A DNA stretch of 64,000 nucleotides from Watersipora subatra (lineage: Eukaryota > Bryozoa > Gymnolaemata > Cheilostomatida > Watersiporidae), in contig NC_088714.1 of NCBI RefSeq assembly GCF_963576615.1, forward strand, positions 42,750,072 through 42,814,071, in the 5' to 3' direction. Under the pieces are notes generated by a model. The model saw only the letters and a program-made list of their open reading frames with translations. It had not been told where the DNA came from and did not search any database. Below, piece by piece: positions 7,335 to 42,478 of the stretch (position 1 is its first letter; every line of letters begins with the position of its first letter). The translations under genes and the position numbers were made by a program.

Positions 7335-10300
7335 TTAGAGATCTTTGAAATTAAAGTTGTCTTCTGTTGTACTGAGGGTGGCATCCTCAACACCCAGTAC
7401 ATTAGCTAGCTGAGAATGGTGCTCCTTGGCGCGGGCTCTTAGGGCCACTATGCTGCCAGATTTTTGTTCTGTACCGGAGGCCACTTCTTCAGTCTCTAAG
7501 GTTGCTGCTGCTTCTACAGATTTCTTGTGCATTCCTGAAAGCAACAGTACACAGTAACAAACTACCGTAGTATTTTATGGAAACCAAAGTTGTCTACTCT
7601 TTAGTTGGGTAAGGATAACTTCATATTAAGCTTTAAAATACAGTATAACAAGTTAATAGTTTTGGTAAATAGAACTATTTTTTATCACCATTTCATCTTA
7701 AACTTGTTATCACTGGCAACAAGGTTTAAACCAACCCAAAATATATATAAACGTGATCAAAACCTGAAGCTTGCTTAATAGTTTTTTGAAACATTGGAAT
7801 AGATCGCTCTGGAATTTCAATGACCTAAATGCATTTATTTTACAGTATACTCGTATACATTTATACATCTATATTTATGACCATAAGTAAGCACTTTTTC
7901 ATTCATTATTGATCATTGCCATGGTAATCATCATGATCACATTGTTTTGGTCACATGATCACATCATTATTCATGCACTTTCACTGATAACCTGAGTGCT
8001 GAATGCCTGAAACCTTTTTTAATTCAGTACTTACCAAAAACCTCAAAATAGAAGTTTTGTGATCGGCAACAATATTTACATAGAACATTTATTTTATGGT
8101 AGACCCGACAGCAATAAAGGTCCTCAATTACTAAAAGTAAGTCTTTAAACTTACTGTACATGCATCAGTTTCAAGTTCAAAAGGGTTTACTGATAGAATT
8201 GAAGGTTACTAACCTAATAGCCATGGTGCCTGTGATTGCTCTACATCTCCAGACTTTGCTGATTTGATGATAGATTCAGGGAGTGGCAATGCGTGCCTCA
8301 CCATTGCTCCATACAGACCATATTCTGCCATAATACTGCTAGCTCCCCAAGTTTTTTCTGTCTTCCTCCATTTTGCTCTTTTGTTTTGAAACCAAACCTA
8401 AAAACAAGTTGATTAAATTTATAACCTTCGAATAATCTATTGTTTATATAACAAGTTTTGAATTAGCATCATCTAGTAAGTTGTATGTACACAATTCTAA
8501 CTCATTAACTGAATGAAGTTGTGTGGGGGTGCTGCTTATACAATGGAAAATGTAAGCCAAGAGTAGACAACTCATGCCTTGCTAAGAAAGCTGCTTGTAT
8601 CAACAGAAGTTGGTCATTATATCCTGTAGCAATTATATGTCTGTTTGGGTTAATTGTAAAAGTCTCAGTTATAGTAAGTCATAAGATTACAAATACTCAG
8701 ATTATTTGCATGCTTCTCTATTTGGATTGAATTGTATCCAAAAAAATATAACAATCGGGTTTTTTATATTATTAATATATGATTAAGTTACTAAGTATAA
8801 AAAATATGTTAATAGTTTTATGTAATTAGCATAACACACCAGTACATAGCATAAATAGCTACTCAACATTCTCAAATAAATATAAATTAAATTTTAGGGT
8901 ATCATTTCGCTATGGTACGTCCCTTTACTTGATGATGAACTTGCAAGTATTATTAAAAAAAACTGTGCCTATTACTTATTTTAAAAGTTCATACAGTATT
9001 ATAGCATAGTGAGGCACCCTCATACGGTGCTGCACTGCCATCATGGGAACAGCTGTTGCTCTCATTATGTAGTGATTAAGTTTTGCTGCACGGAAGCAAA
9101 AGACCCGTGCGATGCGCCATCTTAGTGCTATGAAAAGGCGTCGCATGGCAACTCCAACAGCGTTGCACATAGGTCTTGCTTTCCTGTTGCTCCTGATGCA
9201 GACATATGCCTTGACACAAGGCGTCACACAACCATCGCTTTACGACAGCATTCTATAAAAACATGAGCTGTGTGTCGACCCAGCATAGCGCCTCAGCACT
9301 GGCTCGCCCGAGTGTCGATACACTATCTTTTTATGGAAATTTAGTAAATGCCTCTCTTGAGCTTTCGTTTGTGGTCTACAGAATTTACTTATAATCATAA
9401 ACAGTGACCAATATTCATTTGCTGTCATACTCCAAATAGGCTCGTAATACGTGTAGAGGTTCACAAGCGAATTCTAGCTGTTGTGAGCAGCACATCACTA
9501 TTTGACAAAATCAAAGAATTTGTAGCAAACAGTAACCTTGTTTTTACGCTTCTTCAAGTCTATAAAATATCATTTTACGTTAACAAGCAGTAGTGTTACT
9601 AGATCAGCGGTAACTAAGGTGTGTGAAGGATGATTCCATTAATTCTTTTTTCAGTGCTTCCTAAAGAAGCATCTACTAGCATGAGTCAAGCATTGGCACG
9701 AATGCTTAGTAAGTTAAGTTGTCCACCTAACGGAGGCAGGCTCTACTTGTCACAATGGTAAGCATTGCTAATCTTATGCAACTCGAGTGTCTTTGTTTTT
9801 AGCTCAGTCTAGTGATTCATCGCTGCAGATTTACCTATCCAAAGAAATGATTTGAAGTTGGACAAATAAACCATTCATTGATTGTGATGATTGCTCAAAC
9901 AAGATTATCCGGATGGTAAACATAATTCAGAGTTGTCTTCTCAATGATTTAATCATCCAATTCTCTGTTCAGATTATAAATATTATGGTTTATTGAGTTT
10001 CACATAGCTCATAATAAAATATATAACTATAATATAAGTTATTACAATTGAACTGTAACTTATTATAGATTTAGTATGTAACTATAATATAAGTTATTGT
10101 AATGTAACTTATTATAATATATAACTACAATATGCATTATCATAATTGTAATATAACTTATCATAACTTTTACTATAATAAAAGCAGTGTCAGTTCAACA
10201 GTTGAAGTCTAAACTAGCAGTTGAAAGCTGGGAAAAAGGATTACACCGCATGGGATTCAAACTCATGACATTCAGTTTGGTAGACCAGCTCTTCAACAAT

Positions 10301-13300
10301 TGTACCAAACAACCACCCATCGGCCTTGAAGAATAGTTGTATGTATAGTTATTACACCTGTCAATCTCTCACAGCACACTAGACTGCCAAAATACCAGTA
10401 CATATAATATGTAACTATGATATGTTATTATAAATGTAGTATAAGTTATTATAATTAAACTAAGCCATTACATTCATGTAAGTTTTTGATGTTGATTTCA
10501 ATTGATTAAAGACTATGATGCTCTCCTATTCTAATATCAGTATCTTTTGTTATTTTTTTATGTGAAAGAGGCAGTATTGCAGTATTATGGAATTATACCT
10601 GAATCCTATCTTCAGGAAGTCCAGTTTTTAATGAGAGTTTCTCCCGAGCGCCCAAGTCTGGGTAATGCGCTGTGAGGAAGACCTTCTCAAGCTCATCTAT
10701 CTGGTTGTTTGTGAATATAGTTCTGTGTCGTCTTCTCTTCCTTTTTTTTGATGAATTTTTGCTGTCGACCTCATGCCTTAGATAAGGGCTGTCAAATTCT
10801 CTCTCATCTGCAAACAAATGTATCATAACTTTTTAATCAAATTCGTATACAAACATTTTTTATGAATTCTGATTTTTGTCTCTTTCTAGAATTGGCGGCG
10901 AGGTTTGATTGTATCAGCAGTTTTACCCTTCTAGTTCTTTTTTAAAGTTCATTTCTGGTGAAGTTCTGACATTTTTGTGTAAATCTTCATCTAAGTTACA
11001 TTACAGAGCTACCTGCTGACAGCTCTCAGAGGTAAGTGGTTAACTTACACATGTTGACAGCTCTCAGAGGTAAGTGGTTAACTTACACATGTTGACAGCT
11101 CTCAGAGGTAAGGGGTTAACTTACACATGTTGACAGCTCTCAGAGGTAAGTGGTTAACTTACACATGTTGACAGCTCTCAGAGGTAAGGGGTTAACTTAC
11201 ACATGTTGACAACTCTCAGAGGTAAGTGGTTAACTTACACATGCTGAAAACTCTCAGAGGTAAGTGGTTAACTTACACATGTTGACAGCTCTCAGAGGTA
11301 AGGGGTTAACTTACACATGTTGACAACTCTCAGAGATAAGTGGTTAACTTACACATGCTGAAAACTCTCAAAGGTAAGTGGTTAACTTACACATGTTGAC
11401 AGCTCTCAGAGGTAAGCGGTTAACTTACACATGCTGACAGCTCTCAGAGTTAAGTGATTAACATACACATGCTGATAGCTCTCAGAGGTAAGTGGTTAAC
11501 TTACACATGCTGACAGCTCTCAGAGGTGATAGGTTAATTTCTTATACATGCTGACAGCTCGCAGAGGTGATAGGCTAATTTCTTATACATGTTGACAGAT
11601 CTCAGAAGTAAGCCACTCCATATATTAATTTTGATGAAGACTTCAATTCCCTGATATCAACTCAATATAATTTTTAGACTTATAATTATAACCACACATT
11701 CTACTATTTTGCCTATCATCATGTTCCTTTCTACACAAATAAATTTCCATTCCATTGTGGATTGATTTCGCTCTCTCAGTTAGATTTTAAATAGTCTTCA
11801 TTTAAAAAGAATCAAACAGGTGAAATTATGTAGCAAGATTTTAAAGCATAAATTTGTGAGCAGTATTAATATTTAGAAAGATACAATTAGAACATGCAAA
11901 GCTATACTCAAAACTGGCGAACGATATTTCCAGAATAACAGCAGTGTGTCATTGGATTAGTACAAAAATTATGTTTGTGCCCACTCTGAGAATTACTTCT
12001 CCATTAATTCCTTTTTCAATGATTTACAAAGAAGCATCTATTAATGTAGGTCAAGTATTTTCCGGCTCATTCACTACTTTGCACGGCTGAATGTTTATAT
12101 CTTTAAAATGGAGAAAAAGCATTAATTTTTTGTGGTTCACAAACTTGTAGGGTGAATAGTTGATAAGCTCACACTGAGTTCATCATACCCAGAATGCATC
12201 TAGTATAAAGAACCTTCGTCTCCTTGAATTGAAAAGATACTCGCTGCATACTAACAATAGCTTCATGTTAAATTTCTGGCTGTCAGAAATCCTACTGATG
12301 ATGACCATCTTCAAGGTCTGAAATCCTTGAATATGCTCAAATAGCGAAAGGCGAGTATACACGTAGAAACACCAGCTCTATCAAGTAATTCACTCATGAT
12401 AAGCCTTAATTTTCATTCAAAGATCTTTTCAAATGTAGAAAGCAGCTGTTTTTGTTGTATTTCACAGAAGTAACCGCTAAATATGGCATTGAGAAGGTCC
12501 CCTTGTGAACTCCGCCGAAGGGACACACGGCTCAATAGCTAGGGGAGAGAGAAGTGTGTCAGGAAAAGTATGAAAGGCAAACGAGACCATACCTGTCATT
12601 AGTCTTAATACGCTAATGAGAGTTTTTGTGTGTCTAATGACATTAGGCCAAGAAATACCACAAAACAAGCTTACTTGAAATTGTGTTACCACACATCAAC
12701 AAGTGCTTGCAAGTGCTCACCATCAAGTGCTTACTGACATTTCAGTTTTAACAATACGAAAGGAAATAGGGTCATTTCACAAATAACTTGTTTGATGTTT
12801 TTCAATCGCATTAGTACGGCATTTGAAGGTTTTAATTTCTTCTTCTATTCAAACAGATGGTGCGTGTCAAAAATGTTGCTGACACAAAATACACATTTGC
12901 GCTGAAAAAACATTGCTTTTGAAAGGTGATAGAATTTTATTCTAGGCAACCCATGCATTTACTGTTGGCATTTTTCATAAGCTTTTACCTAGCATTATCA
13001 GTATGAATAGAAACTTTTAAAAAGAAGAATATCTGGCTTTTACGGTGAAAATATGTTTATAAAAAATAGTATATTTATAACCTTTATGCCTATAAATGAC
13101 AGTAAAACTAACAAAGCACTAAAATAATTTGCATTCAAAGTGTCTGATACAAACAGAAATGTTTGACTTGGCTAAACTTTCTCATCCACATTCACCAATG
13201 TGAATCCTGAAGGTGTGTTGGTGAAGTTACAAGTCATCTAATGTTAACCTTAAAGGCGCGTAGGTGAAGTTACAAGGGATCGGATGTGAACCTTGAAGGC

Positions 13301-16300: not shown

Positions 16301-19300
16301 TCACTGAATGCATATTATATTATATATAAATATTATATATTATAAGCGGTAATTAAAGTGCTTCATTGAAGATTGCTTTGTACAGAACTTGAACTACATG
16401 ACATTCAGTTCAGTAGACCGACACTATATTACCTGCGCAACTTACTGCCAGGCTAGCAGTAAGTCGAGTGATACATGAATTTCTTTGATTTCTAGTCAGA
16501 TAGCCCGCAGGAGAATGTTTTTAAAGGCTCAGGAACCTGATGTAGTTTTGAGACCAAATATTGTCCCCATCCTGACATATGCAAGTGAAGTTGAAAAAAA
16601 ATGTGTAAACGCATAGAGCTCCCACGGACTAACAGACAGACTCACACAATGACGAAATGGAATTTATTGATATAGATTTTGCAACGTATGTAGATTCAAA
16701 TTTTCTAAAATTATATTATATTCCTGCAAACTTTAACGTTACTGCTGTCACTGCGTATCAATTCTTTCTAATTCTAGTTTTAATTAACTTTAATAATAGC
16801 CTGTAAAAGTTCCTCGTATCTCCGCAGATGGCGCTTTTAAACGCATGCAACATGTAGTGGCCAGCTCAATAATATTTCCGATTCATTATTTTCAATCTGT
16901 CTTAGCTGTATAATTCATTTGACACAAACCTGAAGAGGGTGGAAGGCTTTTGCTGGAAAAATGATCATGTAATTGATGGTTGCTGACATGGAGAGGCCAC
17001 GAGGAATGTTGTCCATTGTATGCTGGTGGTGGTGGCTGCGCTGTGTGCTGTTGACTTCCTGTTTGCATTCCCAGCATGCCATTGGCGGCGCAGTCATAGT
17101 ATATCACCTGATTTGTTGATACTAAATTAGAGAAAAGAAGTAATGTAAATGTAATTTTTTACATATTTAAAAATAGATTGACACGTACAGTTGATATATT
17201 TTTATTCATGCTTCATTTTTGCCAATCTCTGCCCTTCCCAGAAACCCTGAACCCCAGAAACCCTGAACCCCTGAGCCCCAGAACCCCTGAACCCCTGAAC
17301 CCCTGAACCCCTGAACCCCTGAACCCCTGAACCCCTGAACCCCTGAACCCCTGAACCCCTGAACCCCTGAATCCCTGAGCCCCTGAACCCCTGAACCTGA
17401 TCTAGCATTTCAAGGATTTGGCAGTCCAACCTTTATCTTGCTTTCATGTTTTCATAGCGAGTTTTTAATACATAATCGCCTTGGTACTCAGGTCTTTGTT
17501 TTAATTTTACGAATTACTAAATTGCGAAGTTTGTAAATTTCAAATTTTATTAAGTTTGTAATTAAAATTTATGTCAATTTAGATAGTTATAAAAGTCAAG
17601 AACGAATATTATACGTATTAATATTAATGGATTATTATATAATTAAATATAAATAGTTGATTATTTTATGTTAATGTTCAAAAGTAACTCTATTTCTAAA
17701 CATAAATAATATAGAGTGAAGTGTAAAGCTACAAAAGAACTCTACACTAATAATAATAATAAGTGGAGTTATTGCTTCGACTAAAATTTATCTGGAAAGT
17801 CTTCATCTTCTCTACAAATCTGTTTTGTGGTGTAGTCTGTCAGGCATCTTTGTTCAAAATAATTATTTTATATATCACTATCCTGACTCCTCCGCAATAC
17901 TAGAAGATTACTAACTTTTATAACACGTCTATTCAATTCACTCAATAATTCCTGATTTCTGTTTCTCATTTTTGTCTTTGCATACAACGAAAAACATAAT
18001 TTTGTTGATGACTACTAATTCTAATAACATATTATACACACTACTAATGTTGATAACATGCTATACACACTACTAATGCTAATAACATGTTATACACACT
18101 ACTAATGCTAATAACATGTTATACACACTACTAATGCTAATAACATGTTATACACACTACTAATGCTAATAACATGTTATACACACTACTAATGCTAATA
18201 ACATGTTACACACACTACTAATGCTAATAACATGTTATACACACTACTAATGCTAATAACATGTTATACACACTACTAATGCTAATAACATGTTATACAC
18301 ACTACTAATGCTAATAACATGTTATACACACTAGTAATGTTGATAACATGTTATACACACTACTAATGCTAATAACATGTTATACACACATGCATTAAAA
18401 CTTTATAATTTACAGGAAGAGACCTGTTCAAAGTTAATTAGGAATGTTAAAGATAAATATAACACCAATATTTAAAAAGTAAATGATGAACCAGCTTATT
18501 AAGTTAAAATGTTATTTTTCTGCCATGCAATTTTGGAATATCTTGTTATTGCGCAAAGAGCGCTGTCGAACAGTGTTTATTCTGTCATTCTCAAAGCCTT
18601 TTCCAATATATTTAGTAAGTAATGAATGTCAGTATATTGAGATAAGAAAAACCTTTAGTTAATATTCCTGATCTACATTTTCTGCAGGCAAATCATAATT
18701 GTTTATGTTAAAATGTATGCAGAGACCCTTTTGTCAGACCGATGGATATACAACTCCTTCATATTTTCACTTATTATTTTATTTGTATTTTATTAATGTT
18801 TCTGAACAGTTTCATTGTCTTTGAAAACTAGAATGGAATGCTGCTTGCGGTATAGCGAATGCTCAGTAATAAACTGGCCATATATACAGTCCTGAACTGT
18901 GTAAGTATACAAAGAGAGCTCAATATCCTCAGTCCATTCCCTAGTGAGCTCAGGCTTATCTCTCACGTATTCTCAAATTAGCTGGCGTCTCGATATGTTT
19001 TTGCTAGATTATTACATAATACTTGATGAAGATTATTTATGTAAAGTCTGTCGTCGACAAGAGACACAACCACAAATATGGCAAAATTTTCTAATTATTT
19101 ATAATTATAGAAGAATTAGTAAACTAAGTACAAGCATTCAGTAAATCAGCAGCGACTGACTTCAGTAACAGCTGCTGCCATAACAGCTTTCCATGACATT
19201 GCTTGCTAAAATATCAGTTAGAATCTTTACTGCAATAAGACACATGTCCATCTGTCCGAAGCTACACCGAGTGCATATGAAAAAAAGACTGCTCCGCAGA

Positions 19301-20376
19301 GGAATAGGACCTGGGTATTCAGTCTCTCAGCCAAGCACATTACCATTTCCAATACTCGAAAACCATTCCGCATTTAAAAATAATTGTATGCATATTTATT
19401 ACATCTAATAATCTCTCTCGGCACGCGGGATTGTCTGGGTTCTAGTACTATTAATATCAGTTATATTTTCAGTTACTAGAAATCTTTTTATAAACCTTTC
19501 CATATCATCTACCCCGAGACTGGGTATTTATTTGCTTTAGCAATAAATAATTCCAGTCAACCTTCAATGCTAGCAATTGATGCAACTGTCCCAAAATGTT
19601 AAGACAGTCAAGAAGCTATGGTAGACATTTGTTTCTAATTCTATAACACTGAGTAACCTAAAATATGACTGTTTTAAATTTTAAACAGCGGACACCGTAA
19701 TATATCGAATCTTGCCAATAGAAAAAAATGGTATAAAATGTCATAATTTACTATTTTATAGTATCACATATTTAAAATTTAAATTATAAATTTTAAAATG
19801 GAAAATAAAGAAATAAAATGCTACAGTCTGTAGATGCCAAAAATGGTTCTCAAATAGTATAGTGAGAAAGCGCTAAAATTATTCATTCATCAGTTATGTA
19901 CACAAGTTATGCCTGAATTCAGTTGAAGTAGTAAATCCATTAGTACAAGAATCTTTATAAAAGGAAATGAATCAGAAGTTGGCAGATAGTTGGGAGTAAA
20001 TCTTACCCGCTGTCGAAGAAATCATGTGTTGTTGCTGTCCTTGCACACCATCTGACATATTCATCTGTGGCTGATACATCGGTCCGGGTGGCAAAAAGTT
20101 TGCAGAGTCTCCTCGGCCGCTAGGGTGGTATTCCTGTGGCAAAGTCTGTGAATGTTTTTCCGGTACGGCGTGTTGACCAAGGCCTAGCAGTTCGTGTATT
20201 CCAAAGGTAGATCGGGGTCCTTGATGTGGGTTTATAAGAGTATTCGCGCATGAACCATGTTGGTAGCCATTGTAAATGGCTGGCTGTTGGGAATATCCTG
20301 TGTACCCTGAGTGTTGTTGAGTGATCATTCTCTCCACAGTCATATCCCTGCTTTTAGGTTTTTCACGATAGTTCAT
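7335..20376 (-). CDS. Vsx: Vsx/Chx10-like paired-like homeobox transcription factor ('Vsx-A')
   Basis: Exons in coding order are 20376-20007, 17121-16930, 10807-10599, 8397-8214 and 7534-7335. All introns are GT/AG and the phases join, giving 384 residues. Features: octapeptide (eh1-like) FGIHELLGL near residues 58-66, which recruits Groucho in related proteins; basic KKRKRRRHR leading into the homeodomain at about 212-271, with Q50; CVC domain from about 272 ([27 protein letters not shown]); RV-like motif [13 protein letters not shown] near 346-358. The intron after homeodomain residue 46 (RIQ/VWFQN) is the classic paired-class site. Oddity: residue 52 is Lys (QNKRAKWRK) where Vsx proteins normally have Arg. 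CVC plus octapeptide makes Vsx secure; assignment to Vsx1 or Vsx2 is not. Confidence 0.93.
8214..8397 (-). CDS. Vsx: Vsx-A exon 4: homeodomain helix 3 and CVC domain
   Basis: This 184-nt exon starts at [12 protein letters not shown] (recognition helix, W48 to K58) and runs through the CVC core to APWLL. Acceptor TTTTTAG, donor GTTAGT, phase 0 to phase 1. Its length is identical to the matching exon of Vsx-B (26892-27075). Confidence 0.93.
8398..10598 (-). other. Vsx-A intron 3
   Basis: AT-rich, with an island of higher GC and low repetitiveness at about 8976-9330 whose open frames resemble no family I know. The only exact Chx10-type TAATTAGC in this intron is at 8823-8830. A SINE copy lies at about 10171-10404. 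Confidence 0.45.
10171..10404 (-). repeat. tRNA-derived SINE copy
   Basis: Read on the minus strand, GTTGAAGAGCTGGTCTACC and then GAGTTTGAATCCC look like a tRNA A-box to B-box region. The plus-strand left end TACTATAATAAAAGC and the right end CTCTCACAGCACACTAGACT match the copies at 22.1 and 35.9 kb, which defines a full-length family of about 235-280 bp. Confidence 0.7.
10599..10807 (-). CDS. Vsx: Vsx-A exon 3: homeodomain arm, helices 1 and 2
   Basis: The exon encodes an acidic linker, a basic KKRKRRRHR arm and [16 protein letters not shown], up to LPEDRIQ. Unlike Vsx-B, no intron interrupts the arm at RHR/TIF. Acceptor TTTGCAG, donor GTATAA. Confidence 0.93.
11013..11613. repeat. 38-bp tandem repeat, about 15 copies
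   Basis: Unit of the form TTACACATGTTGACAGCTCT followed by CAGAGGTAAGTGGTTAAC. The right end is more diverged. It lies in Vsx-A intron 2. The plus strand carries GAG/GTAAGT, donor-like but antisense to the gene. Confidence 0.9.
13199..13412. repeat. 43-bp tandem repeat, 5 copies
   Basis: The core GAACCTTGAAGGCGCGTAGG followed by TGAAGTTACAAGG repeats about every 43 bp, with diverging end units. Confidence 0.8.
15280..15615. repeat. AT-rich simple repeat
   Basis: Irregular repeats of ATAAATATAAATTTATAA and ATATGTATAAAT. No coding signal. Confidence 0.8.
16190..16680. repeat. Decayed SINE/dispersed-repeat cluster
   Basis: Two related segments (16190-16325 and 16530-16675) share GTGGAAACGCAGA/GTGTAAACGCATA and ACTCACACAA plus a short A-rich end. 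Between them, 16370-16460 resembles the tRNA-like SINE head (ACATGACATTCAGTTCAGTAG). Confidence 0.45.
17205..18020. repeat. Dispersed repeat family copy with inserted 8-bp array
   Basis: The left part (TTCATGCTTCATTTTTGCC) and right part (ACTCACTCAATAATTCCTGA) match segments at 52368-52830 and 28050-28240. Inside it, 17236-17398 is an array of CCCCTGAA (8 bp, about 20 units). It lies in Vsx-A intron 1. Confidence 0.65.
18020..18388. repeat. 29-bp tandem repeat, about 12 copies
   Basis: The unit TATACACACTACTAATGCTA followed by ATAACATGT starts exactly where the dispersed repeat to its left ends, and that repeat's own last segment resembles one unit. Confidence 0.9.
19225..19460 (-). repeat. 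Diverged tRNA-derived SINE copy
   Basis: It shares TCCATCTGTCCGAAGC, an AAAAAAGACTGC(T)CCGC segment and the right end CTCTCTCGGCACGCGGGATT with the other copies of the family. The B-box region is degraded. Confidence 0.5.
20007..20376 (-). CDS. Vsx: Vsx-A exon 1 with start codon and octapeptide
   Basis: ATG at 20376; the first 123 codons are rich in Gln, Tyr and Pro and contain [10 protein letters not shown]. The donor GTAAGA at 20006 is phase 1. The start is the only Met opening this frame; the sequence just upstream does not continue it usefully. Confidence 0.85.
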
Positions 20377-21074
20377 AGAATGAAAAACAGAGTAGAAGAA
20401 GAGTATAATACGGTCTCCAGTCTATCGTCAGTCTTATCGCAAAGAATATATTGGTATGTACCAATGTAAGCGGTTTATCCTTTTCTTATCACAACCAGGT
20501 GTCAGCCAAGCCGCCTCGTTCTCAGACCAGACCTTCCACACTCGCTGATAAACATAGAGTAAGGAGAGACGCCTGGAACTGAAGGCTATATGGCTAACTG
20601 GCTGCACGAGTCAACTACAATAGATAAGGGCCCTCAGTTGACATCCTTTGATTTGATTGGCTCAGATTCCTCGCTGACAACCATCTATTACGGATAATGC
20701 TTTTCACAAAGATCTAGTCTATATTTCCATTGTTGTTAAACAAGCGCTCTGCCTATTCATATGCATTAAAAAGATATGCCTAAAACAGAAAATGAAATAG
20801 AAATCTGTTCAAGAATTTGTTTTTAAATAAGGATTACTAACTTCCAATAAAATTCAACACAATTCTTTTCAAAGATTTGCTTGATAAAAAAAGGAAAGAA
20901 ACTCTAGAAAAAACATGAAAAAAATGTTTCAAAGTTAGATCACACAAAACATAGATTCAAAGTTGAATAAAGAAAAGTAAATTGTATAAAAACAACCTTC
21001 AGCACTTTAACATAATTTGTTAACTGTAGAATATTTTTGTAGACAAAGCTATAAGCTTGACAGCTCCTTTCTTA

Positions 21075-21114
21075 CGTATATATATACACATATACATACA
21101 CATATACGTATACG

Positions 21115-21185
<71 letters not shown>

Positions 21186-21417
21186 GTATACATATACGTA
21201 TACATACACATATACATATACATATACATACACATATAGATACACATATAGATATACGTATACATATACGTATACATATATGTATATGTGTATATATATA
21301 CACATATACATACTCATATACATATGCATATACATATGCATACACATACACATACACAAATACATATTCATATACATGTGCATATATACATATACATACA
21401 CATATGCATATACATTT
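21075..21417. repeat. (CATATA)n-type microsatellite
   Basis: A run of ACATAT/ACGTAT units about 340 bp long. Long open frames through it on both strands (Tyr/Met/His-Ile repeats) are composition artefacts. Confidence 0.95.
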
Positions 21418-22124
21418 TGGGGCTTCTATGGAATGTCTTAAGTTTCATGTACAAATGCTAAAATTTGTATTCTTTGTAAACTAGCTGTGCAGCCAATATC
21501 CATAAACAGGCATGAGTTGTTAATAGCAATCGATAAAGACTATGCTTTTGAAGCCATTCCCACGCTGCTGCCGTAACAAAAATATTGCTAAATTTAATGT
21601 AATGCATAAAATTAGCCTTCTTACACTGATTTATAGTTTTATGTCTTTATGCTGTCTTAAATATGTATCAATATTGACACATCTAGTTAAACATTCAATT
21701 AATTAAAGTACTCCTTCTCTTGGAGCGATGCAAACCGATATGCCAATTTAGCCATCATAGCAATTCAAGCTCGCAACTTTTAGCAAGTTTCATATAGCAT
21801 ATACAGGTATCAAGTTCAAAATTGTACCAGATCTTGTCATAAAATGTGGAATTCTTTTCGCGCGAGTAAAGTAATAGCGTAATGAGGGTGTTATAAGAAC
21901 ATTATGTAGGAAGTTATGCAGAAAATAATTAATTTCTTTGTTTTCCACGGTGAGCTAATCATAGCTTACATAGTGTTTTAGGGTTCTCAAACTCATGAAG
22001 CTAACGTACATATTGTGAAGTGTTTGAACTAAGCCAGAATCACCGAAAGATATTGAAAAGGAATGCGATAATAAATTTTTGTCTTCCATGTCATTTGTTC
22101 TCAACCCTTGTATTTTGTCAATTA

Positions 22125-22412
22125 CTACAATGTTTACTATAATAAGAGCCGTGCTCGTATGTTCATCTGTCTGTCTGTCTTTCTGTTTGTCTGTCGATTT
22201 TTCCGTCTATCCATCTGTCCATATGTCCGTCTGTTCGAAGCCACATTAAAAGCATTAGGAAAAAATATATTGCCTCGCATGGGCATCAAACTTGGGGCAT
22301 CAGATTCAAAGGCCAGCACATTACCACTACATCACTTGGCCACCAAACTACTTCACGGGATAATCATACTAATTACTCATGATGATCTCTCTCAGTGGCA
22401 AGTGTGCTAGTA
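22125..22412 (-). repeat. tRNA-derived SINE copy
   Basis: The left end ACTATAATAAGAGCCGTG is followed by a CTGTCTGTC-rich stretch. The tRNA-like part, read on the minus strand, has TGGCCAAGTGATGTAGTGG and AGTTTGATGCCC. The right end CTCTCTCAGTGGCAAGTGTG resembles the family tail. Confidence 0.7.
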
Positions 22413-22839
22413 AGTATAAAACCTTTATATACGTTTTGGCATGTATAGGTTTTTGTTGGCATTATTAAATTATCAACAAAAATTATGTTTTTTGTTACAT
22501 GCCACAAGACAAAAATGAGAAACAGAAATCAAGAATTATTGAGCAAGTTGAACAAAAGTGTTTTAAAAGTTGGTAATCTAATATATTGCAAAGGAATAGG
22601 GACAGTGAATTGAAGGTTGTAGTAACAGAAAATTCCTTAACTGAAATGGTGAATGTAGTATATTGGTGTCGTGAAATACATGTAGAAATGTTAGTCAATT
22701 CCTCCTAGTCTTTTCTGTCAGTACGCAAAAATAATATTTTTTAGTTTCAGGCTGTCCTCATTGTCAGTGGAAAGTCACCACAATCTGCTACAACAACTAT
22801 TCACTGTATTTTACTCTTCTCTCATTTTACATAGAACCA

Positions 22840-23140
22840 CTGTCAGCCTCTGCAGACAACTGCTAACTACTGTCAGTAACAGCCAACCGTTGTAAACTAT
22901 TGCTAACCCTGACAACAACTGTCAACAATTGTCAGTATCTATCAACAGCTGTCATTTACAGTAAAACATTGTCAAACATTGTCAACCTTTGTCAATCAAT
23001 ACCAACCCCCTACACTCAGTGTCAACCATTCTCAACCACTGTCAATCACTGTCAATCACTGTAAACTAATGTCAACCACTGTCAACCACTGTCAACTACT
23101 GTAAACTAATGTCAACCACTGTCAATCATCTCATTTTAAA
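22840..23140. repeat. Degenerate CTGTCAACCA repeat
   Basis: Loosely periodic units of about 10 bp (ACTGTCAACC, ACTGTCAATC, ACTGTAAACT), more diverged than other arrays in the window, so probably old. Confidence 0.75.
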
Positions 23141-26520: not shown

Positions 26521-28524
26521 TCAATGGTTTACAGCTTTCTCTCCTTCCAATGATTTTTGTAGGTTCTGTGCGGGTAATAAAGATGGCATATCCGTACTTG
26601 ATACAACTATAGACTTATTCATAGAGACGTTCTTGTCATCAGATTGACTAGAATCTTCTACACATGTTGTACCTTCCGACTCATCGGTTTTCTTGTGCAT
26701 ACCTACAAGAGGTCGTATGGGTGAAGAGTATGAGATTATGTGAGACTGTGTAGAACATCAACTGAATCAAATATGATATATTTAATATGACCAAGGAATA
26801 CCACCTACTGCTATTTACTATAAATACTCCTTTAGAGTTGCAGAGACTCACGGAAATATCGTTTTATATAAGATTGAAGTAAAAAACGTACTCAGTAACC
26901 AGGGTGCATTGCTCTCCATTATGCCTCCCTTCTTTGCTGACTCTACGATGCTGTCAGGAAGCGGAAGGGAATGCCTAACCATGGCCCCATAGAGCCCATA
27001 TTCAGCCATTATAGAGCTCTTTCCCCATGTCTTTTCTGTCTTTCTCCACTTCGCTCGTCGGTTTTGAAACCAGACCTACAGATAATGAAACGATTCTTGT
27101 AAAATAATTGCTTGAGTTTCTTCTTTATCTGAATTGATGACTTGAATTTAAAACTTTTTATGTACCTTTTATGTTTCACTACTCGTGGTAAATAATTCAT
27201 TATACATTAAAGACTATATCACAGCTTTATTTTGCGACTATTATATGTAACGGTTGGCTTGTCTAGCTATCATCTTTGAAAGAGTGAGAAAAAAACTATT
27301 CACTACATGTGATTTCTGTTTTTTTTTTCATTTAGTTCTACGGGTTTGGTGATTGAATATGGTATTCAGCTCAACAGGAATTGTGCTAGTAAAGATGCTT
27401 TTAAGGTCATTGAAAGTTGTTACTACGGTCCAGGATCAGGAGACCTGCTTGTGTATACAAGGTTAGACTTCAAAGTGTTAAACATTAAAGACTAACAACT
27501 TCATTTCGCAACTTTTACATGTAACAATTGGTCTGTTCAGAACCATCTACACAACTACAATTTATTGAGAAGATAAAGTAAGAGAAGACGTAATTGAGGG
27601 TAGCAAATGCTATTAGCGAGGATGCACAGACCGATAGCGCGTGTCAAGGTGCTCAAATTGCTGCAGATAAATTAGCCAAATTAATCTACAAGTTGTAATG
27701 AAGTTGATTGTGATCTTTTGTATGTCCAAACAAGCCAGGGGGAGGCATGACTGGCCAACTGCCTGGCAACTCCACATGAGATACATGATTATATTGCTAG
27801 CAACTTGCCTATCCGATCACCCTATAACCTACGTACGTCTACATACATCTCTATGTCTCATTATATAAAAAGATTAGATGTAGTTCTAGAGCTCGTGTCA
27901 TAAGGATATACCTTATACTACATGTACATACTATATCCACTAAACTATGCCCCGAATATTTGTATTTAATCTTCCACACATGACAAACACCGTTTTCTAT
28001 TCCATGACACCAACATACTACATTCACCACCATATGTTTCAGTTTATGAACTTTCTGTTACTACAATCTACATTAACTATCCAGACTCTCTGCAATACTA
28101 TTAAATTACTAACTTTTAAAAGACGTTTGTTCAACTCACTCAATAATTCCTGATTTCGGTATTTTCATTTTTCTTCTTTTTGGCACGTAACGTAAAACAT
28201 CATTTTGTTGCTGATTACCAATGCCAAATAAAATGTTAGACATGCGAGGATCTCCCAGACGGCAATAAGCTCTAGACTTTTAATCTATAAGGGTACCATT
28301 CGTTCCCAAAAATAGGAGATCAAATGTGCTTCTCTATGCCAAAACTATATTCATATATTTTAACTTAACCAAAACAACTTTGTCTAATTTTTTGCCATTA
28401 TTGTTTCTAAAATGTTTAATATTTGCTAGCACCGTGTATATATACACACATGTAAATCATATATATACACGTGTAAGTTATATATATATAATACACGTGT
28501 AAGTAAAGTATATACATGTGTAAG

Positions 28525-28570
<46 letters not shown>

Positions 28571-34500: not shown

Positions 34501-37500
34501 TGATATTCAACAAGGAAGGACCGAATCAAAAGAGAAAAAGGAATTCATCAAGAGGACAAACACTATGCGGGTCAAAGCTATCAAAATACAAAAAGTCATA
34601 TATAAACGGTATGTGGTGCTGATGATTTGGCACTGAGCTGGTGTGTTAGACTGAGAAGTGGAATAAACGCGGGCGTTACACAGAAAATCAAAAAGATAAT
34701 GGACATGAGCAAGTCATTACACTTACGATCTATTTTACAATCTATTGTACGATCTATTGTATGATCCATTGTACGATCTATTGTATGATCTATTGTATGA
34801 TCTATTGTATGATCTATTGTATGTTCTATTGTATGATCTATTGTATGATTTACTGTACGATCTATTTTATGATCTATTGTACGATCTATTGTATAATCTA
34901 ATATACGGTCTATTGTACGATCTATTATATGATCTATTGTACACAGACACATCCAAAGAACATAGTGGATGTCATCATCAACGACTAGGTGAAGTTGGAA
35001 GAAGAGATTGATAACGATGATAATAATGAGAGGACAATTCATCGATAAGTGAGAGAATAACTAACCCCTGAAGCATGCATGATAACTACAAAAAGTGATC
35101 ATGTTGATAGATGGACGGATAACCTAATGTATGGGCAATATGTGCGACAATAGAGAAAAAGTGTAGATACAGAAATGACTGAAAAACGTACCTGAAAGCA
35201 TCAACAGAGACACTCATAACGACAGCTCAAAACCAATTACTATTCAGCCGGAGTAACACCAACAATAGACAATCCAAAATGCTAACTATGCAAAACGGGA
35301 AAAGGAGGCAATTCATCATACTGTGTGATATTGGGATGCCAAGCGCTTACCAACGAAGAATATAGGAGCTGACACACGGTATGCAAGTACATTTACTGAA
35401 TTCTCAGTACGGAGCGCAATCTAAATAGACTAAACAGTGGTAGAAACGCAATCCTCTGCCTACCACCGATAAAGAGAACATCAAGCTACTACGTTTGACT
35501 TCTGATACACTGATAGAGAAATTCACACAAGAAGACCAGACATAGCTATCCAAAATAAATAAAAAAGACCAAGTCACTATCATTGATGTTTCCTGCCCCA
35601 TAGATGCAAATGTCAACAACAAAGAGACGGGGAATATCATAAAACATCAAGACTTCAAGATAGAAATGTGGAAGAATAGAAGAAGATGTGGATCGGTTGG
35701 AGCGTTTGGAGTAGTCACTAAAGCATTGTCAGATCACTATGCGTTCCCTTCAAAAGACTTGAATGTGTTCGTCATACAAAAACCCTCACCGCTTGGCACA
35801 TATCATACGCGAGTTTCACAACGCTAAACCTCTTGATGAGGAGCCAACAAATCCAGTTTTAGGCTATGTTCGGCTGGTAGTATAATCCAGCCTTAGGCTA
35901 TGTCCGGGTGGTAGTATAATAGTACGGTAATCTTTACTATAATGAGACCTATGTATGTCCGTCCATCTGTCTGAAGTCACACTAAGAGCGTGAGGAAAAA
36001 AGACTGCACCTCACTGGAATCAAACTCAGATATTCACATGACAATCTCTCACAGCAAAAGAGACTACCAGGATACTAGTATTAATAATAACAACCATCTT
36101 GTTACATTGTGGAATAATTGTGAACATAGTTAATACACCTGATGATCTTTCACAGCACACTAGACTACCAGGGTACTAGTATTAATAATAACAACCATCT
36201 TGTTACATTGTGGAATAACTGTAAACATAGTTAATACACCTGATGATCTTTCACAGCACACTAGACTACCAGGGTACTAGTATTAATAATAACAACCATC
36301 TTGTTACATTGTGGAATAATTGTGCACATAGTTATTACACATGACAATCTCTCACGAGGTGCCGAACTGCCTGTGTACTAGTAGTAATAATAATAGATTT
36401 CCATTTCAAAGTTGTATTTAATAGTAATTATTTTATGATTATCTTCATAGAGTTGAAACAAATCTCTTCCTTTGAAAGACTTTCTTGGTAAAATGTAGTT
36501 ATGGTAGAATGTTTGAAAGTTACCAGCTGATTTGAGGTATAGCCAAGAAAAGTAAAGTTGACAGCTTGCTGTAAACCTGAAGACTGCTTGCAGGTAAAAC
36601 ACACAATTGTTTTTAGCAAAAACTTACTTATACATAATGAACAAAGTTTTAAATACACAAAAGTAGTATGATTTACGAATCTATAGCATATACAGATAAA
36701 TTACCATGAATTGTACCTATAGGCCTATAGACTAAGACAGACAAGGCTATCTGTCAGGTATGAATTGTACCTATATAGACTAATACTGACAAGGCTATCT
36801 GTCGGGTATGAATTGCACCTATACAGACTAAGACAGACAAGGCTATCTGTCAGGTATGATTTGTGCCTATACAGACTAAGACAGACAAGGTTATCTGTCA
36901 GGTATGAATTTTAACTACATTGTATATAGACTAAGACAGACAAAGCTATCTGTCGGGTATGAATTGCACCTATACAGACTAAAACAGAAAAGGCTATCTG
37001 CCGAGTATGATTTGTGCCTATACAGACTAAGACAGACAAAGCTATCTGTCAGGTATGAACTTATGCCTATATGGACATAAATAGCATGAACCATCAAAAT
37101 GCTGACTGCATTCACTGACCTGTATTCGATCTTCTGGAAGCTCGGCGCGAGCAGAGAGAGATTCTCTTGTGTAAACGTCAGGATAGTGAGCATCTTGAAA
37201 TGCCTTGTCTAAGAGCTCGAGCTGATAGCTCGTGAAGATAGTCCTAAGGCACAAGATATACAGAACTGCCTTCTTACCAGAAAATATACAGAACTACCTT
37301 CTTAATAGAAGATATATAGCACTACCTTCCCTAATAGAAGATATATAGAGCTACTTTTTTAATAGAATATACATTGAACTACCTTCTTAACGGAAGATAC
37401 ATAGAACTACCTTTTTAATGGAAAATATATAGAACCTCTAGAGTATGGAAGTCTATTACTAGGGACTCCTATGCAAGCATTATGATGGTTTTCCTGAACC

Positions 37501-40500
37501 GCATGTGAATAAGCCTGACAGGTCACACCCAGTGAGAGCATGAGTCTTCTAGCATTGGTAAATGTATGATTTGTGATAAGTTAGGATTATATCATATGAC
37601 ACATGACATATCAGTTTGACAAACCTCATGACCTCAAATATGACAAGTGTCAACAAGTGCTTCAGACTAGTCAACTTTGTGATATACTTCCAAGACGGTA
37701 CCCACCCAACTAATTTTATTTATATGCTGCGTGGCAAAAAAGGTCAACTTTGATTAAAACCAAATAGAAGTTTTTTGGTGACATTAGTTTTGTATTAAAC
37801 ATGGTTACTGCATCGTTATACAACAATTGAAATTTAGATAAAGCATCTAATTAGCAATAAAAATAATATAATAATGTAATAATAATATAATAATACAATA
37901 ATAACATATTACAGGCAAAGTAACAAATAATGGGTATGTTTGCTACTGATAGGGAAAAAGTATTAAAAGGTAATATTCACCTGTGTCTGCGTTTTTTGCT
38001 CTTTTTACCAGCAGGATTCTGTTTCATTATCTGTCTATCATAGTACTCCTCCATTTCATTTCCTGTGCGATCCAATCAGCTATTATTGTTGTTCTTATTT
38101 TCATACACACATCTGTATAGTCTGATATAGCACAACATCAATGTTCCGTCATTGTTGATACAGAAACACTGTCTACCTACTGTTGCATCATGGGAATCTT
38201 TCCTTCATGAAACAGTTAGCTGTCATTCATGACAAAATTTAATAGAAATATAAGTCTAGGTCTTTGAGTAGTAATCAAAAACATTTTGCCATTTTTCAGG
38301 CAGTTTTTGTTGGTAAAAAAGAATTTGATGTTCTGATCCTAATCCCATCCTATCAACCGCAGCCATTGCTAAACAGCTGAAATAACTTGCCATAGCTTCA
38401 ATTAAGGTAAACAATTCAGGGCCGTAATATCACCCTCCCTTATCTCAGCATTAGCTAAAGGCTTTTTTATAAACATAAGAAGATGTGTACCCTGAATATA
38501 AGATCTGCTATTCAAAGAGTATCCAGAAGTCTATGCATTACTAATAATGGAACTATTCTAACTGCGAGCTATTATCTGTCTATCGTGTACTTTATCGTAC
38601 AATTTGTAACCTTCCTATCTTACCAGGTATTTTCCTTACAGATTACCAGATAAACATTTACAAAATGTGAAAAACTTTACTTACATGACTACCCAATGAC
38701 CACATCTTTCGACTTATAATAAAATTAAATCTTATATTAATTCATTTATATGCTGGCAAAAAATATAAATTTAAATGTTACAGAATATTTAATATTTAAA
38801 TAGTTTGAAGTAACTTAATAGTTTGTATTAATTCTACTACTAACTTTATAATTTAACAGATTGGTATATTACAACCTGTTTTTTTCAAAAAATTCATTCC
38901 AAAATTTTATTATCTTTTGAAATTTTAAATAAATTTTATTAAGATATCTAACGAGAGGACTATTATTATTACTGTGTTATATAGCCCATTGAAATCCTGT
39001 TTCTAGGGTGCTACCAAAGTTTTTTTTAGAATTTTCATATGTTTTTAGTGTGAAGTTATGATGTTTGGCAACACCTTCTTATGATACTCTTGCTCTCTGC
39101 TAATTCAACTTCTATGTCATATGTTCTAGTTTTTCATTAGTACTCAGTACTCTCTTAATCCGCTCCTTCAACTTATATGCTCTTCTGCCCATGCATTCTA
39201 CAGCTACAGGGATGGTTTCTACTCTAGAGCCGTGCCTTAGCTCACAGACTTTGTAAGCCAACTGTTGGTAGCTCTGCTGTTTTTTCTTCTTTCTAATTAT
39301 GTTCTCATCATGAGAGTCACGTCTCTTATTTGGATCAGCTTCTTGTTCTTGTACTAGTTGGTCACATCTGGTTGGCGGATGGTTGTTTCCTTTTTCATCT
39401 CGTTTTTAAAGTACCAACACGACTTTGCCTGTTCCCATGTCAACACAGTGTCTTTTCCTCATCTCAACTTGTACCGGCACTGGTCATGACTGAGGAGATT
39501 CTTTGGCCGAAGCAGCCGTCAGAATCTTTAGCACATTATTGTCTCTTGTCTCTGGTCACAGGATCGTTTCCTGCAAGTAGCTGGCATCCTTCTGTATCAC
39601 AGCCTCAGAGAACTTTATACACAACCTACATAGATCTGATTCAATGCCAAAACCCCTGTTCTGCTTCCATGCATGGTCTGAATAATCTGGTCTTGCATAT
39701 TGATAATTGCTGCCACTTTCCTTGGGTCTATATAACATTTCATCTACTCGTGTTCCCTTCTTCGAGGTATCTGTAGAATTCACTCTGCGCTCTTTTAGTT
39801 TTGTACCCCTCTACTTTGACATCAGTCCTCTTTTTGACTTCAGACTTCAAGCTCTGCCAGAGTCCTTCCACATCTCAATTACTTTTTCACCATCTTAGTG
39901 AACTCTATATTTATCAAAGCAACGCTGACACCATTATATTTACCAGTAAATACGCGGTAAATACGCGGTAGATACATGGTAAATATCTCTGCTACTGCTT
40001 TGCTTAAGGGTTTTCCTTCTTTCTCTGTCTTACTCTTCCAAGCTACTGTTGTCCTCTTACTGTCTTAGTATGTCGTGTAACAAGAACCCTCACCTTAGTA
40101 TTCTGACACCCTCCCTGACAACCTTCTGCCGTGTTCCCTACTCACGTATAATTATTCACCACCTGCTTGTTTCCCCATGCATGTTCTTTCCTCTCAGTTC
40201 TACTTAAATTAGTTTTTGTTATTACTATTATATATTATTACTATTATCTTCACTATTATATATATTATTATTACTATTATATATTATTACTATCATTATC
40301 ACTGTTATATATATTACTATTATTACTAATATATATTATTACTATTATTATCATGACTATATATATTAATATTACTATTATATATTATTACTATTATTAT
40401 CACTATTATATATTATTATTATTATTACTATTATATATTAGTACCTACAGATAATGAAACGGTTCTTGTAAAATAATTGCTTGAGCTTCTTCTTTATCTG

Positions 40501-42478
40501 AATTGATGATTTAAATTTAAAACCTTTCATGTATCCTTTATGTTTTACTGCTCAAATTAAGTAATTTACTATACATTAAAGACTATATCACAGCTTTATT
40601 TTGTGACTTTTATATGCCGCGGTTGACTTGTCTAGCAACCATCTTCAAAAGAATGTGAAACAAAACTATTTACTCTATTCGATTTCTGTTTTGTTTTCAT
40701 TTAGTTCTACGAGTTTGGAGATTGAATATGGTATTCAGTTCAACAGGAATTGTGCTATTAAAAATGCTTTTAAGGTCAATTGAAGGTTGTTAATACAGTC
40801 CAGGATCAGGAGACCTACTTCTATATATTATATATATATTAGTTACTACTATTATTATTATTTGAACATAATCAATACTTAAAATTGAAACATACGTTTA
40901 ACAAAGTTTGTTTAAAAGTACGTATGAGTATAAAATTTACGGTGAAGAATATGAGGTCAGAAGGTCAAAACCTACCATCCTATTATAATAACTATTTCTT
41001 TAGTTTTAAATCAAGCCAAGTTTGTTACTTTCATACCTTTATATAACTGTTGGTGCGTATCCATGCCTTGTTTGTGGTGAGCAACATGAAACGGCTGGTT
41101 GTTTGACTGCAACTGGTACTCGTGTGTCAAATGGTGTATACCTCCCCCGTGTTGACTGATATTCGGTGGAAAACTTGTGCTAGGTGTCGCATGATAGTAG
41201 CTTTGCGGCGAGGAAATTGCGCCATGGCGAAATGGATGACTAGTTTGGTTGGGGTCGAGAGCACAAGGCATATAATTTCCAGGAGCAGGTGGATGTACTT
41301 GGAACGCTGCTGTTGAGTTGGTATTTGACAAACCTAAATGTAACAATATGGTTGTGTTTCATTATCCTTCTAAAAGACAGTACCAAAAGTGTACCAGCGC
41401 TGCCTGTTCTTGTTTTTGCATGCAAAAAATCATTATTACAGTATTAATAAACTTCTTTAAACTTTGCAAACCAATTCTAAAAGACTATGTCTATGTCTAC
41501 TGGAGCCAACCGCATGGTTTTTCTATGAATTTTTTATAGACTGACAAATTATCTATTAAGGTCAGTTCTATTAAAAAGGATGCGTTATTAAAAGAATCTT
41601 ATTAACTGTTTTCAGCATTTGTCATCAGCTTTTTTATTTCCTAATTTTTAAAAAAGCTTCATTTTAATTGGCTACTATGATACCTTTTATATCCACCCAA
41701 ACACCACATAATTTCTGTTTGTGTTCTTCACAAAATTCTAACAGTGAATACATGGCTAAAAGCTAATCAACTATTGGCTAGGAAACACAAAAGATGTTCA
41801 ACAAATACTATGAAAATTTTTTTCAACAGTTAGTTTTACGTAAATATAGCTGAATGGCTTTAAAATAGTATGATTTTATTATATAAGAAATAGAAGGCAA
41901 CATAATTGCTGTATTACTGTTCTATCCATTGCTGCTGACAAATACTCAAATTTGGAAAGCAACACATTCCACTTTCCACATTGACTCGACAATTGCTACA
42001 TCAAAGGTGATACCAATAACAGAATATATTATACAGGTAAATGATGAAACAATAAATATGAGATAATACAACAAAAATGTAATATTACAGAAGACCATAA
42101 AATAATGCCAACAATTACATGTAGTATCTCACACATTTTACGAAACAACTTTCAAAGTTAGCTAATAGACATATTAACTTATGTAAGTGTAAACATATTA
42201 CGTTAGCTATCTATACAAAGATATATATTAATTTATACAAATACATCAATTTACTAATAGCTAACAGTCATAATACAATAATAAAAAAACATAATATATA
42301 ACTTACCAAGTAAATCATTGATAGCGAACGGGGCCCTCGTATTCTGTAGGTGATAGCCTCCATAAATCTGTCCGTTGCACGACTGTGCCAGAGATGATGA
42401 GTTTGAAGGAAAATGCCTGACATGGGATGAGCTGGCAGATGTGACGCTGACGATAGAGTTAATACTCTGATGGATCAT
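26521..42478 (-). CDS. Vsx: Vsx/Chx10-like paired-like homeobox transcription factor ('Vsx-B')
   Basis: Exons in coding order are 42478-42307, 41333-41037, 38062-37981, 37243-37120, 27075-26892 and 26702-26521 (TGA). All introns are GT/AG and the phases join, giving 346 residues. Features: octapeptide FAINDLLGL near residues 51-59, split by intron 1; His/Gln/Pro-rich linker; KKSKKRRHR leading to the homeodomain at about 180-239 with Q50 and canonical [12 protein letters not shown] domain ([27 protein letters not shown]). The C-terminal tail is a short acidic/Ser stretch ending AVNH, with no recognisable RV motif. An intron falls at homeodomain residue 5 (HR/TIF, phase 2), absent from Vsx-A. 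The 10-kb intron after residue 46 is loaded with retroelement debris. Nuclear transcription factor; Vsx1 or Vsx2 identity is unresolved. Confidence 0.93.
26892..27075 (-). CDS. Vsx: Vsx-B exon 5: homeodomain helix 3 and CVC domain
   Basis: A 184-nt exon from [18 protein letters not shown] to NAPWLL. Acceptor ATCTGTAG. The donor is GTACGT after an A, making the junction residue Ser (WLLS) where most Vsx proteins have Gly. The acceptor side of the neighbouring intron is duplicated at 40444. Confidence 0.92.
27078..27470. repeat. Intron segment duplicated at 40444-40830 (copy 1)
   Basis: Starting at the CTACAG (splice acceptor on the minus strand) and running about 390 bp to GATCAGGAGACCTGCTT, this sequence is repeated with modest divergence at 40444-40830. 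This copy is the functional 3' end of Vsx-B intron 4. Confidence 0.85.
28050..28240. repeat. Partial copy of dispersed repeat family
   Basis: CTCTGCAATACTATTAAATT and CAACTCACTCAATAATTCCT match the 17.2-18.0 kb and 52.4-52.8 kb copies. Confidence 0.6.
28432..28862. repeat. Tandem repeat of about 20 bp (TATATACACATGTAAGTCAT)
   Basis: About 20 units with variable (TA)n length. The plus strand repeats AT/GTAAGT, donor-like but antisense to Vsx-B. Long open frames on the minus strand (Tyr/Ile/Met-rich) are artefacts. Confidence 0.9.
29820..30125. repeat. AT-rich low-complexity tract
   Basis: Nearly pure TATTATAATA-type sequence with no coding signal. Confidence 0.85.
31610..31850. repeat. AATAAT/AATAGT low-complexity tract
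   Basis: Trinucleotide-like AATAAC/AATAGT runs, ending in a short TAGCCATAGC-type repeat. Confidence 0.8.
31915..32480 (+). pseudogene. LINE relic: C-terminal endonuclease region of an RLE-type non-LTR retrotransposon
   Basis: Translated in pieces across frameshifts: [15 protein letters not shown] (end of the zinc-finger region), a DKTKIL-DF-IQTDQ segment, remnants of the PD-type endonuclease stretch, and [13 protein letters not shown] at the very C-terminus. These are hallmarks of LINEs with a restriction-like endonuclease. Many stops and frameshifts; inactive. Antisense within Vsx-B intron 4. Confidence 0.65.
32600..35860 (+). pseudogene. LINE relic: RT to restriction-like endonuclease, heavily decayed
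   Basis: In order: a Glu/Lys-rich N-terminal part (32.85-33.4 kb); reverse transcriptase pieces at 33.70-34.40 kb (SYx[15 protein letters not shown], a SMCWINYK-like motif, [18 protein letters not shown]); [14 protein letters not shown] near 34.7 kb; a Cys/His finger remnant near 35.28 kb; and [15 protein letters not shown]-, then [15 protein letters not shown] near 35.6-35.75 kb. A 12-bp array (34725-34945) has expanded inside it. Same family or class as 31915-32480, but a separate copy, since both contain the C-terminal domain. Confidence 0.65.
34725..34945. repeat. 12-bp tandem repeat inside the LINE relic
   Basis: About 18 units of GATCTATTGTAT/GATCTATTGTAC. The period is a multiple of 3, so open frames run through it on both strands (Ile-Asp-His-Thr and Tyr-Asp-Leu-Leu repeats). 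Confidence 0.9.
35925..36380 (-). repeat. tRNA-derived SINE with triplicated tail
   Basis: The head TTACTATAATGAGACC, CCGTCCATCTGTCTGAAG and TGGAATCAAACTC (B-box region in reverse) match the family. The right part, ending CTAGACTACCAGGGTACTAG, repeats about three times with a 101-bp period (36070, 36171, 36272). Confidence 0.7.
36715..37078. repeat. 48-bp tandem repeat, about 7 copies
   Basis: Unit AAGACAGACAAGGCTATCTG then TCAGGTATGAATTGTACCTA plus TATAGACT. The array stops about 40 bp before the end of Vsx-B homeodomain exon 4 (37120). Confidence 0.85.
37120..37243 (-). CDS. Vsx: Vsx-B exon 4: homeodomain residues 6-46
   Basis: 124 nt encoding [15 protein letters not shown] to LPEDRIQ. 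Acceptor TTGTGCCTTAG, donor GTCAGT. The arm residues KKSKKRRHR come from exon 3 at 37981-38062. Confidence 0.93.
37255..37436. repeat. Tandem repeat of about 30 bp
   Basis: Five to six diverged units of AGAACTACCTTCTTAATAGA AGATATAT, directly upstream (in gene orientation) of Vsx-B exon 4, inside intron 3. The acceptor of exon 4 borders the array. Confidence 0.7.
39090..39900 (-). pseudogene. LINE fragment: zinc finger and endonuclease region, second RLE-type family
   Basis: Minus-strand pieces read [20 protein letters not shown] (finger), TIRQPDV (PD-type endonuclease), [18 protein letters not shown], and [19 protein letters not shown]. These follow the order seen in restriction-like-endonuclease LINEs, where the last motif is usually VPVVVGALG. 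Frameshifts and stops are present. It differs from the family at 31.9-35.9 kb. Confidence 0.55.
40215..40440. repeat. (TATTATTAC)n-type simple repeat
   Basis: A TATTATTACTATTATATA-type tract ending exactly at the left edge of the duplicated intron segment. Confidence 0.85.
40444..40830. repeat. Duplicate of Vsx-B intron 4 end (copy 2)
   Basis: It matches 27078-27470 from CTACAGATAATGAAACG to GATCAGGAGACCTACTT, same orientation, with scattered substitutions. It retains the intron's CTGTAG acceptor on the minus strand but no exon follows; downstream is simple repeat. Confidence 0.85.
42307..42478 (-). CDS. Vsx: Vsx-B exon 1 with start codon
   Basis: ATG at 42478 opens 57 codons rich in Ser, ending in FAINDLLG, with donor GTAAGT. 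The octapeptide finishes in exon 2 (41333) as G/LS. The phase 1 join confirms both exons. Confidence 0.87.

Follow-up and report, generated by a model that had tools for sequence, protein, structure and literature searches.

Two predicted Vsx-family transcription-factor genes, both intact as judged from their sequence, are neighbours in the assembly, where they form a head-to-tail tandem on the minus strand with gene B transcribed towards gene A (Table 1). I consider it most likely that the pair is an old tandem shared with other spiralians; the reading preferred here, at a probability of about 0.6, is that a single Vsx gene was duplicated in tandem on the spiralian or protostome stem, not in this species, and that the two copies have been neighbours since. 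The stretch analysed, hereafter the window, comprises 64,000 nucleotides (positions 42750072-42814071 of contig C7, in an assembly of 783.7 Mb and 239 contigs) and contains no N. Gene B (42478-26521) has six exons and encodes 346 amino acids, gene A (20376-7335) has five exons and encodes 384 amino acids, and the outer boundaries of the pair thus stand at 7335 and 42478. GT..AG ends flank each of the nine introns, and the spliced reading frames stay open throughout, with no frameshift or stop in either model; B and A each have their own start, their own stop and an in-frame stop ahead of the start. These models bear out the original prediction of two complete Vsx genes in tandem on one strand with those boundaries, and the spacing of about 6.1 kb that it gave was measured as 6,144 bp (20377-26520). 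Polyadenylation-like words are found 417 bp past the stop of A (ATTAAA) and 607 bp past the stop of B (AATAAA), although words of this kind turn up often where DNA is A+T-rich and are no proof, and no RNA family reaches its gathering score anywhere in the window.

Table 1. Exons and associated features of the two Vsx genes, in window coordinates and in the order of transcription
Feature	Position	Strand	Remarks
B, upstream of exon 1		-	in-frame stop, 14 codons between; supports the start
B exon 1: start codon, octapeptide FAINDLLG/L cut at the slash by a phase-1 intron	42307..42478	-	172 nt; GT donor
B exon 2	41037..41333	-	297 nt; AG/GT ends; phase 1 in, phase 1 out
B exon 3: linker and basic arm KKSKKRRH to homeodomain R5	37981..38062	-	82 nt; AG/GT ends; phase 1 in, phase 2 out; in frame with exon 4
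B exon 4: homeodomain residues 5-46	37120..37243	-	124 nt; Pfam homeodomain on spliced protein; genome match E 1.4e-7
B exon 5: homeodomain residues 47-60 and CVC	26892..27075	-	184 nt; 80% identical to A; genome-wide E 1.0e-36 (query itself)
B exon 6: MHKK and C-terminus, stop codon; no OAR-like motif found	26521..26702	-	182 nt
Spacer, B stop to A start	20377..26520	.	6,144 bp; 6-bp-unit repeat at 21078-21415
A, upstream of exon 1		-	in-frame stop, 15 codons between; supports the start
A exon 1: start codon, unsplit octapeptide FGIHELLGL	20007..20376	-	370 nt; GT donor
A exon 2	16930..17121	-	192 nt; AG/GT ends; phase 1 in, phase 1 out
A exon 3: linker, basic arm and homeodomain residues 1-46 together	10599..10807	-	209 nt; Pfam homeodomain; genome match E 5.3e-12
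A exon 4: homeodomain residues 47-60 and CVC; K52 for R52	8214..8397	-	184 nt; genome-wide E 1.8e-29 with B query
A exon 5: MHKK, OAR-like motif (protein residues 341-357), stop codon	7335..7534	-	200 nt; Pfam OAR 15.3 bits, cut-off 20.1

As predicted for them, both spliced models contain an octapeptide, a Q50 homeodomain and a CVC region. The homeodomains score 80.2 bits in A (E 9.7e-23) and 78.5 bits in B (E 3.4e-22) against a Pfam cut-off of 22.9, and WFQN as well as Q50 is present in both. The CVC region follows directly after the homeodomain, and the octapeptide reads FGIHELLGL in A and FAINDLLGL in B, both features having been recognised by sequence pattern and not by profiles. Among the proteins compared in one study, a discernible CVC region was confined to VSX proteins (PMC3447932), and vertebrate VSX1 and VSX2 combine a homeodomain and a CVC region as A and B do. 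In the PDB, the best matches of B are aristaless-type, paired-class homeodomains, with ALX4 at the top and no VSX-named entry among the best 60 of 124 matches. Some members of the Vsx family carry a C-terminal OAR. An OAR-like motif stands at the C-terminus of A with a score of 15.3 bits, short of the 20.1 that Pfam requires, whereas B showed none. A loose scan for this motif on both strands of the window returned only A and one plus-strand match at 15239, while the short OAR profile, run against the whole genome, matched neither here nor in any of 14 controls, so that this search is uninformative.

The CVC exon, which is 184 nt long in both genes as originally stated, was used in its B version to search the whole genome. 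Of the nine candidates scored, only B (E 1.0e-36) and A (E 1.8e-29) were found at E <= 0.01, and because of these E values, with no other match, chance is excluded as the source of the likeness. The search runs exon by exon, and a Vsx gene without a recognisable CVC region would escape it. Among 104 stretches in GTDB genomes and 5 in viral contigs that fitted the Vsx pattern, no relative was found.

A pair of this kind could also be produced by an assembly that holds a false duplicate, or one of the copies could be dead. The window is indeed rich in tandem repeats (86 rows including overlapping ones), one of which, at 37253-37435, lies 9 bp from the homeodomain exon of B. However, 25 of 97 residues differ between A and B in the conserved part, from the basic arm to the CVC region (72/97 identical), and a false duplicate does not fit because of this divergence; with both models free of frameshifts and stops in a window without N, I regard artefact and pseudogene alike as very remote.

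The original prediction also named shared elements of gene structure, which are confirmed. A has four introns and B five, and two of these match exactly, namely the intron after homeodomain residue 46 (phase 0) that had been named at the outset, and the intron before MHKK (phase 1). A third, of phase 1, falls in the weakly conserved linker; the alignment places it with an offset of two residues between A and B, and it probably represents one intron common to both. The whole structure is not shared, as the intron sets differ at three places. B has a phase-2 intron at R5 of the homeodomain that A lacks and that the original prediction did not mention; the 82-nt exon ahead of it, with the basic arm, was found by a scan for basic runs in the gap preceding the homeodomain exon. 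Furthermore, a phase-1 intron inside the octapeptide occurs only in B, whereas A has a phase-1 intron further on. The split octapeptide of B and the OAR-like motif of A are likewise additions to the original prediction.

As to which state is older, the human gene gives an indication. The VSX1 variants c.504-24C>T and c.627+23G>A are listed with genome positions 170 bases apart (PMC4630895), and by arithmetic these names and positions fit a single 124-nt exon, c.504-627, with phase 2 at its start and phase 0 at its end. Exon 4 of B has the same length and the same phases, and because of this match the R5 intron probably predates the duplication, B having retained it and A having lost it. In a study of mouse Vsx2, the R200 and R227 changes are both placed in exon 4 and a cassette in intron 3 (PMC3447932), which fits a shared CVC exon without fixing where that exon starts. 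On the preferred reading, the R5 intron, an old feature, would have survived in B but not in A, and the OAR in A but not in B.

The divergence of the two genes argues against a young pair. In the homeodomain 41/60 residues are identical, and at four-fold sites only 8/24, where the third-base make-up leads to an expectation of 0.28. As a yardstick, homeodomain residues 1-46 agree at 28/46 positions between A and B and at 43/46 between two genes of the same genome that are Otx-like by comparison with provisional reference sequences. With four-fold sites near chance, a homeodomain identity of 41/60 and a changed intron set, a recent duplication appears unlikely from the sequences.

The main rival to an old spiralian tandem is an independent tandem duplication in the animal's own lineage, at the level of family or order, with both copies diverging fast. 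If both copies had changed quickly since a younger duplication, silent sites would likewise be saturated and identity reduced, and both homeodomains do depart from the consensus of provisional sequences of human VSX1, VSX2 and worm CEH-10: of the 11 positions where these three agree and A or B does not, A alone differs at five, B alone at five, and both have S at one. Just past the homeodomain, moreover, A and B share 29/34 residues, above the 28/34 that either reaches with the nearest of these three references. In the homeodomain itself the order is reversed, as the 41/60 between A and B falls below the values for either gene against human VSX2 (A 44/60, B 49/60), human VSX1 (43/60 and 46/60) and worm CEH-10 (45/60 and 46/60), all three reference sequences being provisional. 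This closer likeness to the references than to each other is a lead and not a test, because the same picture would arise if both copies had changed fast. The introns that differ at three places, and two oyster genes with consecutive locus tags (PMC5322547), also stand against a duplication confined to this lineage, while the authors of the Biomphalaria study infer the Vsx duplications of that genus only as at least genus-old (PMC8848322). On balance I consider an independent duplication rather unlikely, perhaps one chance in a few.

Tandem Vsx pairs are a known arrangement, with similar pairs reported for an oyster and a snail, and the present pair adds one genome to it. In the Pacific oyster, Vsx1 carries the locus tag CGI_10010562 and Vsx2 the tag CGI_10010563 (PMC5322547). 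The consecutive tags only suggest adjacency, but the two genes are probably neighbours, and the oyster would then resemble A and B in having two adjoining Vsx genes, as far as a comparison through locus tags goes. Two Biomphalaria species are reported to share three Vsx paralogues, two of them clustered and taken as tandem duplicates (PMC8848322); the clustered two are comparable to A and B, although there are three paralogues in these snails versus two CVC exons here. Elsewhere among the protostomes, a polychaete gene has been named Vsx B (PMC6118893), and Lepidoptera are listed with the Vsx family (PMC9977156). In the main-text passages covered, all from one open-licence library, I found no statement on the age of Vsx pairs across phyla. 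The absence of the R5 intron in A and of the OAR in B could serve as markers to discern one old event from several across the protostomes. Whether such a pair preserves an ancestral arrangement or arose by independent duplication had been posed as an alternative by the original prediction. The choice is now narrowed: a recent origin is unlikely, and the side-by-side placement indicated for the oyster and snail genes too favours an old spiralian tandem.

A still older origin would make the pair a bilaterian, or protostome, ancestral tandem. On this account control DNA used by both would have kept an OAR-bearing A (VSX2-like) and an OAR-free B (VSX1-like) side by side, and the adjacent Vsx1 and Vsx2 of the fly and the scattered VSX1 and VSX2 of vertebrates would be altered remnants. 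Vsx1 and Vsx2 of Drosophila, as the original prediction states, are presumably adjacent, which is a likeness to A and B in arrangement, and an OAR-like motif in A but not in B recalls what I take to be the state of VSX2, with an OAR, and VSX1, without. The oyster (PMC5322547) and snail (PMC8848322) reports are equally in line with such an origin. The original prediction had placed vertebrate VSX1 and VSX2 on separate chromosomes, which is correct for human (20p11.21 and 14q24.3, PMC2211742) but not for zebrafish, where both genes are on chromosome 17 (PMC10212559), again in agreement with an ancestral tandem. Nevertheless, the human pair, on its separate chromosomes, is much more alike than A and B (55/60 versus 41/60 homeodomain residues, both human sequences being provisional), as would be expected of a vertebrate duplication; the likeness of B to VSX1 in exon 4 is a retained old state and not a shared novelty, and an OAR is easily lost. 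A common origin of the spiralian, fly and vertebrate pairs is therefore possible but unsupported, and I consider it improbable, both in the general form and in the version with matched OAR states.

If the tandem is old and spiralian, shared control DNA would account for A and B having stayed together, and the two genes may have divided or changed their roles after the duplication. The Q50 homeodomain of each protein would be expected to bind TAATTA-type sites, while the CVC region would raise the affinity for DNA and a corepressor would be recruited through the octapeptide. R53 of the homeodomain and the R of GAMVRH are present in A as well as in B; from a count of positions I take them to correspond to R200 and R227 of VSX2. 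Mouse VSX2 cannot bind DNA properly without R200 and does not reach full affinity without R227 (PMC3447932), and VSX proteins are described to bind TAATTAGC (PMC10212559). Because both keep the matching arginines, A and B should both bind TAATTAGC sites, by analogy, A having K52 for R52. Expression of Vsx in the visual system is described for vertebrates, for the fly and for cuttlefish (PMC10212559, PMC4186843), in Sepia in the optic lobes (PMC4186843), and Vsx of the squid optic lobe is treated in PMC12240821; A and B may likewise act in visual or other interneuron precursors.

A genome search for homeodomains gave at least 68 matches, 13 of them on C7 and two of these in the window, with a match in 0/14 control genomes. 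Outside the window, 45 distinct stretches were compared with provisional reference sequences, and many of them were without clear family. On C7, I take an exon at 38.03 Mb to be Otx-like (47 identities to the reference), one at 33.30 Mb to be weakly Gsc-like (33 identities versus 32 for Arx), two exons at 4.81 and 15.08 Mb to be NK2-like and three further homeodomain matches to be SIX-like by eye; a piece at 33.60 Mb is presumably paired-class, its best reference being Pax3/7 (24), and like three further matches among the 11 read on C7 it was assigned to no family. By the same kind of reference, an Hbn-like exon is found on C3 at 12 kb from a Rax-like one, whereas Vsx shares C7 with the Otx-like and weakly Gsc-like exons. 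For the Hong Kong oyster, linkage of Vsx to an Hbn-Rax-Otp cluster has been reported (PMC7566022), and a grouping of this type is seen here only in part.

Two other features of the homeobox complement can be mentioned. The two Otx-like genes, alike at 43/46 homeodomain residues, are on different chromosomes (L020 on C7, L057 on C5). A Hox4/Dfd-like exon (L002) lies on C4 and two other Hox-like exons (L001 and L003) on C1, by provisional labels, and the Hox cluster may be split. The KLTGP stretch after the homeodomain of L003 is presumably the Lox5 signature, which points to a protostome. A search of the genome for COX1, as a marker of mitochondrial DNA, yielded 0 matches, against matches in 8/14 controls.

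The repeats in the window show some proximity to the exons of B. A stretch of about 385 bp at 27074-27457 begins within two bases of the edge of the CVC exon at 27075 and has a copy at 40443-40827 in intron 2 of the same gene, the two being 86-91% identical in ungapped pieces and 87% over 384 bp. About 190 bp of this stretch belongs to a dispersed repeat family with at least 65 matches including both copies (40 of 523 candidates scored). The minisatellite at 37253-37435 has a 28-bp unit, and its end 9 bp short of the homeodomain exon places it within the R5 intron that A is without. Long minisatellites are found at 45462-47178, 62318-63165 and elsewhere, for example with a 24-bp unit in 71.6 copies and a 15-bp unit in 56.9 copies. 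On the plus strand, an open frame of 433 residues (2425-3723) with many NQMGMQ-like repeats runs over a 21-bp tandem repeat and has no Pfam match at E <= 1. Upstream of B on the minus strand, open frames at 53673-54224, 60268-60744 and 61955-62287 may represent the exons of one more gene and likewise have no Pfam match at E <= 1.
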